From assembly GCA_023205875.1 (NCBI GenBank), contig CP060767.1, positions 62,001 to 126,000 of the forward strand: 64,000 nt of DNA, written 5' to 3'. Source of the DNA: Chloropicon primus. Taxonomy: Eukaryota; Chlorophyta; Chloropicophyceae; Chloropicales; Chloropicaceae. The position numbers were made by a program, and so were the translations under genes. Below are positions 6,773-62,639 of this stretch, piece after piece (positions within the stretch are counted from its first letter, which is position 1; each line of letters begins with the position of its first letter). The notes below the pieces were generated by a model, which had not been told where the DNA came from, made no database searches, and saw nothing but the letters and a program-made list of their open reading frames with translations.

Positions 6773-7062
6773 CACCTCTGAGCATGTAACATTACTACCT
6801 CGATGATATCGGTTACATCAAGTTCATCGTCACCCCGAGGGTCAAACGGGTCGAGTGAGCGCTCCATCGAGAGCCCAAGAGGCAAGGACTCGCCCTGCCA
6901 TCCTCTCTTCTCTTCCATCAAGCTTGCATTGCCCCTTTTCTCACAACAAACCCAAACTCTGCAAAAGTTTTGGCTTGCTGAAGGAAGAGAGCAAGCTCTC
7001 CAAATTTTTTGAACGAAACCGCGCCAAAGGAGAGAGTGACAGCCACGAGGACGAGTGCGGCC

Positions 7063-9326
7063 ATGTTCGCTCGAAAGAAGCGCCTGGAGCTCCAGGTGAA
7101 CGCCCTCAGCGATCCTCGGACACAAAACACTCTCGATGCTTACTTGAGAACGAACCATTACAACAAGAGGGTCGAGAAAACGAAGGAGGAACAAGGTAAG
7201 GACTCGCATCGCATTGCAAAATGAGGAGAGAAGGGCAAAGAAATGCCGTCGAGTTGTGTCAAGGTGGGAGAGGTTCGGGTCACTGACGACGGCATCCTGG
7301 TCCCGTTTTGCCTTTGGTTCAGAAACGCGGGCGACGAAGAAGCCGAAGATCGAAATAGCGACTGAGAAGCCGGCGACAGGTGCTGGGGATGACAGAGAGG
7401 TGCTCGTCGTTGGAGAAGTGGAACGGGGCGGGGGAGGGGAGGAGGTGCAGCACGGCGGACTCGCGAGGCCGATGGAGCTGATCAGCGGAAGAATCGATGT
7501 CCTGGACTCGATGACGAGCACCTCGAAGCTGGATGAGGAAGAGGTGGGGCTCACCTTGGATATGGAGAAGGTGTCGAAGAAGGAGTTCCAGCTGAGGTCC
7601 GCGCTTGCGATATCAAGAAGGACGGCGCCCCAAAGCCGTTTCGGCGTGCTGATGAATTCGTTCGGTGGACTCTCTTTAAGGAAGTCAATGAGCAGGCCGT
7701 ACGCGTTTCACAACTACAAAAAGTACGGGGTCCAGGGTGTGGTGCGAACGTTCATGGATGACGGTGAGGCGAGGGGCAACTTTCGAGCCAGAGTGACGCA
7801 CCTGCGCCTGGATTCTAGGGGAGACATTGCTGTGGCAGGCGCGGAGGATGGTTTGATTCTTGTGTACCGAACGCGTTCGCTGGACCACGCAGCAAGACAC
7901 AAAAAGAACGACTCGACGAGACCCCTCTTGACGATCCCAAATGTGAGTCACCGTCATCGAGCGACAACAAAGCATACTCAAACAAAACCTGACGTGTGTG
8001 TGTGGTCACCCCTTCTAACGTCTTTTCGTTCTGGTTTCCTTGCCGACACAGGGTAATGGCCCCTGCCAGGACGTGCGGTGGAACCCAAGAGACGAGAACG
8101 AGATCGCGGTGGCAAGTGGCTACAACAGGCAAATTCGTATCTATGATCTGTGCCGCTGGACAAGAGGCAGTCCTCCAACGCGGGCTCTTGCGGCATCCTC
8201 GACGTGCAGCCGCAGCAACGAGCGCGGGGGCACCCCAATGCACGCCGGGGTGGTTCGAGTGCAGCACCTGGAAAGCATGGGGCGCTACGTCATCGCGGGG
8301 GGCACTGCTGGTGGAGAGATACTCTTGTGGGATACGAGATGTAAAATTAGGGGGAGCTCGGGGGCTTTGCACGATTGCCCGTGTGGTGTCGTTCGATCCG
8401 ATGATGACATGAGATCGGATCAAGGGTACACGAGCTCCCTATCAAAAATGTTCAAGCAAAAGGAGGACTTGCGCAGCAAGTGCTCGCTGAGGAGCCGGGC
8501 CAGCCCCGTGGTGTCGATCCTGGAGTGCGGGAACAACACGGGGATATTGCACTCTTGCAACTCCAGGGGTGATATCGTTTCCTGGGATACGAGGCAGAGG
8601 AAGACAACGGGTTTCTTCTCAAACAGTTTTGGTGGTGGCGCGAGGTCCGGGGGCGAGTACTTCCACCCCCTCAATAAGGATGCAAGACCGGTCAGGTTGC
8701 AGGACGAGTTGATCACGTTCTGCCGCGGCAACGACCCGAACGGTGCCGAACGTGCCTACGGCAGACACCGCGTGCCCGAGAGTGACATGGGAAAGCTCTT
8801 CGCCTCGACCACGCTTGTAGCGATGAAGCCAGATCCCAAGGACTCCCGGAGGCTTGCCTTCGCCCTCAGCAGCGGGGTGAGTGGCGTGTGCCACGTATCG
8901 AGCAGGGACTTGACGGTCACAAAAGTAATCTTGGGGATGCAAAACGTGTTGAACGATGTCCCGGACACGGAGCACTGGAAGACACTTCCCGCGTCCGTCA
9001 GGAATGATCCGAGGGTGTCCCGAGGCGTAGGTCTCGATAACAACGACCTCGGAGCGGAGCAGGTCCGCGAGCCTGTGGTAGACCCGGAATGGACCCTCAA
9101 GGGCGAGGCCCTTTGCAACCTCGATTCCAGGCAACGCAACATGACTCTCAAGATCCACGATGCCTCATGTTGCCAAGCCTACCCGACGGACCCACCCGTG
9201 ACGCAGCCCCTCCAAGGCCACATCGCTTCTTGCATTGCCAGCCATCCCTTCACGGACGATTTGTACCTCGGCACGAGTTGTGGCCACCTCTGCGTGGTCT
9301 CCCAAGGGGTCGGGCCCCCGATGTAA
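7063..9326 (+). CDS. WD40-repeat protein, function unknown
   Basis: Three exons: 7063..7195, 7323..7942 and 8052..9326. The introns are GTAAGG...TTCAG (127 nt) and GTGAGT...CACAG (109 nt); frames join exactly, giving 675 aa. The N-terminus is basic and helical (MFARKKRLELQVNALSDPRT). WD-type blades include CQDVRWNPRDENEIAVASGY then IRIYDLCRW, and YVIAGGTAGGEILLWDTR. A C-terminal blade ends HPFTDDLYLGTSCGHLCVV. An in-frame ATG at 7009 could extend the protein by 18 aa. I do not recognise the subfamily; WD40 proteins are scaffolds in many nuclear complexes. Confidence 0.75.
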
Positions 9327-36187: not shown

Positions 36188-36385
36188 CTTCCGTCGTGGA
36201 GCCCGCCCGCGAACCTCGCGCCGCTGCCGACCAGCGGCGACGATCGTCCGCGCGCGACTGAGCGAGGCGCCGCCAGCCCGCGAACGCCGCCAGCCCGCGG
36301 ACGCCACGAAACGAATGTGCGAAGTACTATTTATGTAGCGTAATATACATTCCACGTTGTTCCATTCCTGAACATGGCATGGCTC

Positions 36386-36476
36386 CCGGGCGACCCGGGT
36401 TCGAGTCCCGGCGTGGGAACGAAAAGAAGAACAGGCTCCCACGTAGTATAGTCTGGTTAGTATACCCGGCTTTCAC
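36386..36476 (+). tRNA. trnE-UUC: Circularly permuted tRNA-Glu(UUC) gene
   Basis: The 3' half (36386-36419) precedes the 5' half (36437-36476), with a 17-nt linker between. 3' half: anticodon-stem strand CCGGG, variable CGAC, T stem CCGGG, T loop TTCGAGT, CCCGG, acceptor CGTGGGA, discriminator A. 5' half: acceptor TCCCACG, TA, D stem GTAT with loop AGTCTGGTTA and GTAT, A26, anticodon stem CCCGG, loop CTTTCAC (anticodon TTC, 36472-36474). Acceptor, T and anticodon stems pair perfectly. Total 74 nt. The break is at the canonical 37/38 intron site, with a one-base ambiguity. ATGGC just before the 3' half can pair with GCCAT just after the 5' half. Confidence 0.9.
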
Positions 36477-36480
36477 GCCA

Positions 36481-36485
36481 TTTTT
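36481..36485 (+). terminator. T5 Pol III terminator after the permuted tRNA
   Basis: Five T residues begin four bases past the 5' half, as expected if one transcript runs 3' half, linker, 5' half. Confidence 0.7.
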
Positions 36486-36511
36486 GCTCCGTGAGACAAG
36501 GGTTCTGTGAG

Positions 36512-36606
36512 AGACGTTAATTATACAAGGGTCACAACGAGATCGTGACGGCGGAGGACGACGACGGCGACTGACGTTAGTTATACAAGGGTCACAACGA
36601 GATCGT
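36512..36606. repeat. Direct repeat between tRNA and RPC82-like sequence
   Basis: Two copies (about 36512-36545 and 36573-36606) share TTATACAAGGGTCACAACGA and flanks. GACGAC-rich, CA and GA tracts follow up to the next ATG (36742). Confidence 0.85.
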
Positions 36607-36694
36607 TGATCGTAACGGCGGAGGAGGACGACGACGACGAGGACGGCGAGGACGACGACGGCGACGAGGACGACGACGAGGACGACGACGACGA

Positions 36695-44243: not shown

Positions 44244-45518
44244 ATGTCTGCCGCGGGGGGGAGGATCACCGCCGGAGCGGGTGCGAACCTGCTGGGCCAA
44301 AACCATCACGACAGGAACCAGGATGCGACGTGTTACGTCGGGAACCTCGAGCGCCAAGTCACCGAGGAGATCCTTTGGGAGATCTTTGTCCAAGCAGGTC
44401 CGTTGGTGAACGTGTATCTGCCCAAGGACAGGATAACGGGAGCACACCAAGGCTATGGCTTTGTGGAGTTCAAGGGGGAGCAAGATGCGGACTACGTAAG
44501 TGAAGAGTCTCGTGCGGACTTGCTTGTGGTGTCTTTCTTATCTTTTCTTTTTCACGACAACGCTGGGAGGGGAGTTCGAGTGCCTGCGTGTGGTAGGGGG
44601 GATCGCGGCTATGATGAACAATATCCGCGCTTCTGATATGTTCTTACATATGTGAAGTACAACTGGATTAATATGGTTGAATTTCTTCAACTGAGCCAAA
44701 GATCCTCCCCACGGAAAAGCTCTCTCGAACTGCTTGTGTCGCCGAGACGGTCGCTTGGCGTCGAACGTGGAACTGACTCTCTTTTTCTTATTTTTTTTGG
44801 TCCCGTCCAACAGGCCATGAAGATCTTCAACATGCTGAAGCTGTACGGCATGCCCATCAAGGTGAACAAGTCGTCGCAGGACAAAGGCTTTGCGGACGTG
44901 GGCGCCAACCTCTTCGTGGGGAATTTGGACGGCGAGGTGGACGAGAAGTATTTGTACGACACGTTCTCTGCCTTTGGAATGGTGACGAAGACGCCCAAGG
45001 TGGCGAGGGACCCCGACACGGGCGAGTCCAGAGGCTTTGGCTTCGTGAGCTTCCGGACTTTTGAGGCGTCCGACGCCGCTATAGAAGCCATGAACGGCCA
45101 GTTCTTGTACAACAGGCCAGTCACGGTGAGCTATGCCTTCAAGAAGGACTCGAGGGGGGAGAGGCACGGCACGCCTGCGGAGAGGCTCCTGGCGCACAAG
45201 AACAGGGGCTTGGGCGAGCAGAGGCCCCACACCATGTTTGCGGCCGGGCCAGGTCAAGTGACTCCAGGCCACCAGGGAGGCGGCATGCCGCCTCCGCCTA
45301 TGCCTCCGGGAGGGGTCTTCCCTCCTGGCGGGCTTCTGCCCGGGATGCACATGCCCCCCCCTCCAATGGGCATGGGAGGTGGATACATGAGGCCGCCCCC
45401 ACCGCCAATGATGTACACTAACGGAGGGCCACCCCCACCGCCGCCGATGAACATTCATCTTCCACCCGGGATGCAAATGCAGCCAATGCAGCCACCTCCG
45501 CCTCCACCACCGATGTGA
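44244..45518 (+). CDS. SF3B4: Splicing factor 3b subunit 4 (SF3B4/SAP49)
   Basis: SF3B4 is a U2 snRNP protein that contacts pre-mRNA near the branch site. Exons are 44244..44495 and 44814..45518; the intron is GTAAGT...CCAACAG (318 nt, phase 0). The product is 318 aa. RRM1 ([20 protein letters not shown] ... [17 protein letters not shown]) and RRM2 ([20 protein letters not shown] ... [20 protein letters not shown]) are followed by a Pro/Gly/Met-rich tail. The intron splits RRM1. A TGTAA motif lies 50 bases past the stop. Confidence 0.94.
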
Positions 45519-61916: not shown

Positions 61917-62639
61917 ATGGAGGTTGTCAAGGCACCGAACGTGAAGTGGGCTCAGAGGAAGGACAGGCTGTTGGTCACCGTGGAGTGCCAGAACTGCAAG
62001 GAACCCAAGCTGCGAATAGAAAACGATGAGAAGGAGGGTTGCGGGGTCCTTGCTCTGTCGGGTGAAGGCACAAGGGACGGGAAGCCGTGCTCCTACGGCC
62101 TGTCACTGGAGCTGTTCGGGGAGCTGAATAAGGACGAGAGCAAAGTCAGTGTTGGGGATAGGAAGATCGTTCTCGTGCTGCTGAAAAGCAAGAGCGGGCC
62201 GCACTGGCCCCGTCTGCTCAAGGCGAAAGGGAAGGCGCCGCAAAACATCAAGGTGGACTGGGACTTGTACATGGACTCCGACGAGGAGGAGGAGCAGGAG
62301 AAGAAGTCGAATTTCGACATCGGAACCCTCGACGACTTTTCAGTAAGTGGTGGTCCGCTTTTATTGTCTTCCGCTCGTTTGCTTGGATTGGCGAAACTAA
62401 CGGAGTCCCTCCCTCGGCTCGGCTTCACAACAAAACCGCAGAAATTCGATGACCCACTTGACAAGGACGTGCACACGGACAGCGAAGACAGCGACGATGA
62501 AGGTAGGTAACCGCCATCGCGTCGTCGTGATCAAGGGCGTTCAAATGCCTTGTAACGCTTGCTCCAGGTGGTTCGATTCTCGCTGACTCGTCTCTCTTCG
62601 TCTGATCGGATTGCAGACCTCCCAGACTTGGTGAATTGA
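61917..62639 (+). CDS. p23/Sba1 HSP90 co-chaperone
   Basis: p23 stabilises the ATP-bound HSP90 dimer. Exons are 61917..62342, 62442..62502 and 62617..62639, with introns GTAAGT...CCGCAG (99 nt) and GTAGGT...TTGCAG (114 nt). Phases 0 and 1 close exactly, giving 169 aa. The CS domain has PNVKWAQRKDRLLVTVECQN, LELFGELNKDESKV and GPHWPRLLKAKGKAPQNIKV, then DWDLYMDSDEEEE. The acidic tail ends SDDEDLPDLVN, matching the family tail; the last exon codes for only seven residues including the split codon. Confidence 0.9.

Follow-up and report, generated by a model that had tools for sequence, protein, structure and literature searches.

Structure of the permuted tRNA-Glu(UUC) gene

Positions 36385–36475 of the window are an intact circularly permuted tRNA-Glu(UUC) gene. 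The window, i.e., the whole 64,000-nucleotide stretch that was analyzed, corresponds to positions 62001–126000 of contig 14 in the genome assembly of Chloropicon primus (17,584,162 bases in 20 contigs), a prasinophyte green alga (Chloropicophyceae) of the marine picoplankton. We predict that this is a working nuclear gene and that the C. primus genome has at least eight permuted tRNA genes including this one, a reading to which we assign a probability of about 94%. Both halves of the tRNA lie on the same strand, with the 3' half upstream of the 5' half and a short linker between them. The gene and its surroundings comprise the following elements (R1 is the covariance model described in the next section):

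36327..36352, + strand: AT-rich TATA-like stretch, a possible external Pol III promoter, about 33–58 nt upstream of the 3' half (sequence)
36374..36384, + strand: leader side of the putative bulge-helix-bulge, ATGGC ATGGC T (sequence; paired with the trailer GCCAT in the predicted fold)
36385..36419, + strand: tRNA-Glu 3' half, positions 38–73, with the discriminator A and the B box inside (sequence, R1 model, script parse)
36420..36436, + strand: linker (intervening sequence) of 17 nt between positions 73 and 1 (script parse)
36437..36475, + strand: tRNA-Glu 5' half, positions 1–37, with the A box inside and the anticodon TTC at 36472–36474 (sequence, R1 model, script parse)
36476..36481, + strand: trailer side of the putative bulge-helix-bulge, C GCCAT (sequence, fold)
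36481..36485, + strand: T5 run, likely Pol III terminator (sequence)
36484..36546 (contig 14, 98484–98546), + strand: first copy of a conserved 3' tail (tail search)
36565..36623 (contig 14, 98565–98623), + strand: second, partial copy of the tail (tail search)

Reading of the sequence and the script parse gave the same order of elements. The 3' half consists of C38, CCGGG (39–43), CGAC, the T arm CCGGG-TTCGAGT-CCCGG, the acceptor strand CGTGGGA and the discriminator A, and the 5' half of the acceptor strand TCCCACG, T8, the D arm, CCCGG and CTTTCA. The rejoined halves yield a mature tRNA of 74 nt in which all pairs of the acceptor (7/7), T (5/5) and anticodon (5/5) stems, 17/17 altogether, are standard. 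ATGGC occurs twice in the leader (36374–36378 and 36379–36383) and GCCAT once at 36477–36481; the T run lies downstream of the gene, and the linker between the halves does not contain a single T. The first-pass annotation, made from the letters of the sequence, had described a 3' half placed 17 nt upstream of the 5' half, a 74-nt cloverleaf with perfect acceptor, T and anticodon stems, a B box preceding the A box and T5 after the gene, and each of these statements was borne out. The proposed identity of the gene, a permuted nuclear tRNA-Glu(UUC), is supported by the sequence as well as by the covariance model and the circularization test presented below.

Two other assignments of this region were considered and rejected. 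The first, an ordinary intron-containing tRNA gene, would need a 3' half downstream, and there is none (with an intron limit of 200 nt, ARAGORN called no gene in loci L001 or L040). A prokaryotic or organelle origin was dismissed on the grounds that the window sits in a contig of the C. primus nuclear genome assembly.

Detection of the gene with a permuted covariance model

Neither ARAGORN nor Rfam at the gathering threshold listed a tRNA in the window, hence ordinary annotation misses the permuted Glu(UUC) gene. The covariance model R1 was built from ten ordinary tRNAs of the same genome, permuted in silico, none of them Glu (three Arg, Pro, Val, Cys, Ala(UGC), Met, Thr and Lys). It was based on alignment A2; an earlier alignment, A1, was dropped because MAFFT had aligned genes whose variable loop is short incorrectly. 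When both strands of the 64 kb were searched, the Glu(UUC) gene was the sole match at E ≤ 10, with a score of 47.3 bits and E = 4.7e-13. Across 41 genome loci (139,592 bases), R1 gave 77 matches at E ≤ 10, and seven rows among them were permuted genes scoring 41.2–67.6 bits; the top match other than the permuted genes reached 27.8 bits and overlapped an ordinary tRNA gene.

Since Arg and Ala genes are among the members of R1, the scores of the permuted Arg and Ala genes were helped by kinship, whereas that of Glu was not. As the model covers the 37/38 break alone, it would overlook permuted genes with any other junction. R1 was run on all 41 loci of the first set, on 17/24 of loci L042–L065, on 19/23 of L066–L088 and on six further loci. 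The loci without an R1 run, all of them known ordinary genes, were L043, L052, L053, L060, L062, L064 and L065 in the former group and L066, L067, L070 and L080 in the latter.

The check on the circularized sequence suggested in the first-pass annotation gave a clear answer: ARAGORN called tRNA-Glu(ttc) in the doubled unit of 36385–36475 and nothing in the single one. For the whole set of permuted genes presented below, a tRNA of the expected identity was called in 8/8 doubled units and in 0/8 single units.

Other permuted tRNA genes in the genome

A DNA search with the Glu(UUC) gene, which skips very common words, returned three genome matches at E ≤ 0.001, all of them permuted. The two matches besides Glu(UUC) itself lie on contig 5, in opposite orientation, and have the anticodon CUC and a 46-nt linker. 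Their 3' half is identical to that of Glu(UUC) and their 5' half differs at the wobble base alone, whereas the linker and the flanks differ. As the UUC and CUC bodies are identical at 73/74 positions and differ only at position 34, the permutation is most likely older than their split.

The same search bears on the possibility of a chance resemblance or a tRNA-derived repeat. A repeated tail indeed follows the gene, but this tail is also present after ordinary tRNA genes and an SRP RNA-like gene. Moreover, chance is at odds with the E value of the R1 match, and the three matches of the gene body at E ≤ 0.001, in a search that skips very common words, are not the many degenerate copies that a repeat would leave. 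We regard such an origin as extremely improbable and retain the genuine permuted gene as the preferred reading.

Both Glu(CUC) genes are located inside an inverted repeat with arms of 590 nt, 100% complementary and 2.3 kb apart (L038:4179–4768 and 7036–7625, contig 5); the full complementarity of the arms points to a recent duplication or gene conversion.

Motifs of the D arm and a plant tRNA query led to five further permuted genes:

Ala(CGC): linker 15 nt, R1 score 67.6 bits
Phe(GAA): linker 107 nt, R1 score 64.6 bits
Arg(ACG): linker 44 nt, R1 score 62.3 bits
Ser(CGA): linker 13 nt, R1 score 41.7 bits
Ser(UGA): linker 11 nt, R1 score 37.4 bits

Altogether, eight permuted tRNA genes of seven kinds were found: Glu(UUC), two Glu(CUC), Ala(CGC), Phe(GAA), Arg(ACG), Ser(CGA) and Ser(UGA). 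When the acceptor, T and anticodon stems were counted, seven genes had complete stems and Ser(UGA) had 4/5 pairs in the T stem. The break at 37/38, the sole type modelled by R1, fits all eight genes.

A misjoin or a small inversion error in the assembly could in principle have reversed the order of the halves, and the evidence does come from one assembly only. An error of this kind would, however, have had to produce the same order in eight genes at eight places, with linkers of 11–107 nt and all fitting 37/38, in an assembly (RCC138) described as based on both Nanopore and Illumina reads (PMC12301720). An artefact therefore seems to us next to impossible, and the permuted order is taken as real.

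Ordinary tRNA genes and the search for an ordinary tRNA-Glu

The matches to RF00005 over the cut-off numbered 33, and ARAGORN named none of them Glu or Phe. The first-look tRNA scan scored 63/285 candidates, and ordinary genes outside that list surfaced later; for a few genes with introns, the anticodon given by ARAGORN seems incorrect and was read again by eye. Within this incomplete scan (63/285 candidates), no ordinary Glu or Phe gene was found by RF00005 and ARAGORN. The DNA search did not reveal an ordinary tRNA-Glu either, which answers, within the same scope, another check put forward in the first-pass annotation. With the inventory incomplete, an ordinary tRNA-Glu gene elsewhere in the genome is judged unlikely rather than absent.

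These data also weigh on the idea that the two halves are a dead relic, left in disuse after an ordinary tRNA-Glu gene had long ago been duplicated in tandem, while the working gene resides elsewhere. Tandem arrays of ordinary tRNA genes (Pro, Ala) do occur in the genome, an orphan tRNA-Met 3' half is present on contig 9 (L091), and the tRNA inventory is incomplete. A disused copy is nevertheless hard to reconcile with 17 standard pairs in the acceptor, T and anticodon stems and with UUC and CUC bodies that agree at 73/74 positions in different contexts; in addition, the cell needs a tRNA-Glu and no ordinary one was found within the incomplete scan. We thus consider the relic highly unlikely and a working permuted gene the better explanation.

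More ordinary genes were obtained via patterns and the tail search, namely Ala(AGC), Ile(AAU), iMet, Thr(CGU), Pro(AGG), Val(AAC) and Lys(UUU). The tRNA-Ala(AGC) genes form a tandem array (contig 2, 1153700–1157973) with six D-arm matches and four called genes, the second and the last match not being called, and four tRNA-Pro(UGG) genes form another (contig 4, 1124897–1127803). The tRNA-Lys(UUU) gene (L037:411–600, contig 4) carries two inserts, one of 78 nt in the D loop and one of 38 nt at 37/38. The 78-nt insert starts with GTACGT, contains CTGAC and ends with TATGTAG, and it looks like a spliceosomal GT-AG intron; after removal of both inserts, ARAGORN called tRNA-Lys(ttt). The orphan tRNA-Met 3' half (L091:79–114) has its downstream flank and the tail, and no 5' half within 341 bases.

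Neither the ordinary nor the permuted order was found for Trp(CCA) and Val(UAC) by these searches. The Val D-arm patterns recovered Val(CAC), a gene already known, plus a single place elsewhere in which no tRNA was called. The concatenated plant tRNA query matched the Ala 5' half alone; it missed the permuted Phe gene despite containing a plant Phe sequence, hence that search is insensitive.

The junction and the putative bulge-helix-bulge

The break had been placed at 37/38 in the first-pass annotation. In the Glu(UUC) gene taken alone, the junction may be 37/38 or 38/39, because C is present at both 36385 and 36476 and either cut gives the same product. The next base in the Glu(CUC) paralogue is A, which favours 37/38.

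Pairing of the flanking ATGGC and GCCAT into a bulge-helix-bulge had also been proposed. In the predicted fold, the first of the two ATGGC copies in the leader is paired with GCCAT of the trailer, and the leader–trailer pairing of Glu(UUC) exceeded that of shuffled sequences (2,000 shuffles, p = 0.0225). Inspection by eye gave a classical bulge-helix-bulge with bulges CA|C and CT|C and a weak CUUU/AUGG centre with one mismatch; the energy model kept the outer helix and the 3' bulge but preferred a different centre. The pairing itself thus held up in the fold, whereas the complete bulge-helix-bulge at the Glu(UUC) junction is plausible, the modelling being suggestive rather than proof.

The same analysis of the remaining genes gave p values of 0.081 for Glu(CUC), 0.293 for Ala, 0.0105 for Phe, 0.037 for Arg, 0.047 for Ser(CGA) and 0.057 for Ser(UGA), with a combined p of 9.8e-5 over the seven genes; taken singly, the genes give weak evidence of a bulge-helix-bulge, notably Ala, Glu(CUC) and Ser(UGA). 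In the swap tests, the gene's own leader was the best partner of the trailer in only 3/7 cases: it ranked first among the seven for Glu(UUC), Phe and Ser(CGA), second for Glu(CUC), Ala and Ser(UGA), and third for Arg.

Upstream signals and the conserved 3' tail

An upstream motif was learnt by EM from the 110 nt upstream of 33 ordinary genes, with the permuted genes kept outside the training. The motif, GTATATATAGtaAAAAATgTCA, consists of a TATA box and, after it, a box rich in A. Most of the 33 ordinary genes, from which the motif was itself learnt, carry this bipartite box (GTATATATAG..AAAAATGTCA) upstream, and it is likely to be an external Pol III promoter. The permuted genes were scored against this motif, with p values estimated versus 2,000 random window stretches and then versus shuffles of the same upstream sequence:

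Arg(ACG): 21.4, p = 0.0005 and 0.002
Phe: 20.2, p = 0.0005 and 0.002
Ser(CGA): 10.0, p = 0.0065 and 0.018
Ala: 8.8, p = 0.0065 and 0.014
Ser(UGA): 6.7, p = 0.016 and 0.15
Glu(CUC): 3.2, p = 0.08 and 0.33

The sequence upstream of Glu(UUC) did not match the motif of the ordinary genes (−0.2 bits, p = 0.26 versus random stretches and 0.37 versus shuffles). Hence, these scores support external promotion for some of the permuted genes, not for Glu(UUC).

When the 108-nt tail of the permuted Arg gene served as the query, 27 matches were obtained at 24 genome places, L082:1365–1472 (− strand) among them. Twenty-two of the places adjoin tRNA genes, including permuted ones, at about 500 nt in the case of Cys and within about 125 nt in the others; one of the remaining places comes after an SRP RNA-like gene, whose 88.9 bits fall short of the family gathering score of 105, and one after the orphan tRNA-Met 3' half. 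The presence of the tail core (within 220 nt) was compared with that of a T5 or longer run (within 40 nt) for 41 genes: 17 had the tail only, 17 the T run only, four both and three neither (Fisher p = 3.2e-5), the tail and the T run being almost mutually exclusive. Duplicate copies were left out of the 41, and so were Lys(UUU), Pro(AGG), Val(AAC), the SRP gene and the orphan Met half, which had been first seen or settled via the tail. No T4 or longer run was found within 220 nt downstream of the permuted Phe and Arg(ACG) genes. In many Pol III genes the tail seems to be a 3' element of an alternative kind that largely replaces the T-run terminator, and it may act as an alternative Pol III terminator or a 3' processing element.

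Predicted processing of the transcript

The likely mechanism is the known route of permuted tRNAs, which has been experimentally supported in red and green algae (PMC3978253). By analogy with Cyanidioschyzon and green algae described there, we infer transcription, the circle, all the processing steps and aminoacylation for Glu(UUC). Pol III would produce a single transcript comprising the leader, the 3' half, the 17-nt linker, the 5' half and the trailer, and would stop in the T run. The body would fold as a tRNA with the linker joining the acceptor ends, and the leader–trailer pairing would create a bulge-helix-bulge at the anticodon loop. Cutting at 37/38 by the Sen2/Sen34 endonuclease would be followed by the joining of A37 to C38, by a tRNA ligase, into a 91-nt circle, from which RNase P and tRNase Z would take out the linker prior to the addition of CCA. 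A putative splicing endonuclease is encoded in the genome, as judged by homology to Sen2 and Sen34: there are two PF01974 genes, with the best matches to PDB chains at E = 4.9e-25 for Sen2 and E = 3.4e-14 for Sen34.

Relation to known permuted tRNA genes

The permuted gene had been taken in the first-pass annotation as support for a prasinophyte affinity, and C. primus is indeed a prasinophyte. Auxenochlorella, however, is a trebouxiophyte, and because permuted tRNA genes occur there as well, they are not by themselves diagnostic of prasinophytes. The other organisms to which the annotation had pointed, Cyanidioschyzon, Ostreococcus, Micromonas and a chlorarachniophyte nucleomorph, are all found in PMC3978253, where 34 permuted tRNA genes of six algae and one archaeon are tabulated. 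A second chlorarachniophyte nucleomorph with such genes was added in 2015 and the green alga Auxenochlorella in 2025 (PMC12633428); further literature used in the analysis comprises PMC6731263 and PMC4494063.

The closest likeness is to the type II genes of Mamiellophyceae (Ostreococcus, Micromonas) and the Bigelowiella natans nucleomorph (Maruyama et al. 2010, as cited in PMC3978253), which belong to the green lineage and have the same order of 3' half, linker and 5' half. Their junction is nearly throughout 37/38, as here, and their linkers span 5–64 bp (PMC3978253); Chloropicon represents a different class, Chloropicophyceae. Glu and Phe are absent among the permuted species in the table of PMC3978253, whereas every Glu and Phe gene found in Chloropicon is permuted, and the 107-nt linker of Chloropicon Phe compares with 1–74 across that whole table. 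Ser(CGA) and Ser(TGA) are permuted in both sets. The permuted Arg genes of the table have the anticodons TCT in O. tauri and CCT in C. merolae, and the permuted Ala gene TGC in C. merolae, in contrast to Arg(ACG) and Ala(CGC) of Chloropicon.

The genes of Cyanidioschyzon merolae (Soma et al. 2007, as cited in PMC3978253) follow the same logic and are preceded by a TATA-like sequence. This red alga has junctions at 20/21, 37/38, 50/51 and 59/60, whereas the eight Chloropicon genes fit 37/38, the sole type modelled; the circular intermediate and aminoacylation were demonstrated experimentally in C. merolae (PMC3978253). In Auxenochlorella, which is also green but of another algal group, the tRNAscan-SE set was incomplete and the permuted genes were found later (PMC12633428). 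The archaeon Thermofilum pendens (Chan et al. 2011, as cited in PMC3978253) shares the placement of the 3' half before the 5' half with Chloropicon, but has a 59/60 junction and linkers of 7 and 1 bp.

Both Chloropicon genome papers relied on tRNAscan-SE for tRNA annotation, and neither uses the word "permuted" in its main text. We found no published report of permuted tRNA genes in Chloropicophyceae in the main texts searched. No mention of Chloropicon was found in the main text of PMC7678280, which was searched for tRNA counts, and passages of the Auxenochlorella paper (PMC12633428) mention Chloropicon in connection with ploidy and Fanzor.

The present results extend permuted tRNA genes to a further class of green algae, and to Glu and Phe. 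Some of these isotypes yielded no ordinary gene in our searches, and for them the circular route should be indispensable to survival. A more far-reaching proposal, which we put forward tentatively and consider rather doubtful, is that all Glu and Phe decoding in Chloropicon rests on permuted genes, which would make the circular precursor obligatory and essential. The arrangement might be tolerated because Pol III genes lean on external signals, the upstream box GTATATATAG..AAAAATGTCA and, in many genes, the conserved 3' tail in place of a T-run terminator. In that case, transcription could largely dispense with the internal A and B boxes and with their order. This picoalga can be cultured, its genome measures 17.6 Mb and most of its ordinary tRNA genes share an upstream box, which makes two questions testable, i.e., how Pol III starts on inverted A/B boxes and how the circle is opened by RNase P and tRNase Z. 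In practical terms, essential tRNAs can be overlooked when the tRNA genes of such algae are counted with tRNAscan-SE.

Another small RNA gene was noticed in the window, a snoU36a-like C/D snoRNA at 44606–44698 (RF01302, 62.4 bits). Its end overlaps the start of the open frame 44652–45518, which presumably encodes an RRM splicing-factor protein.
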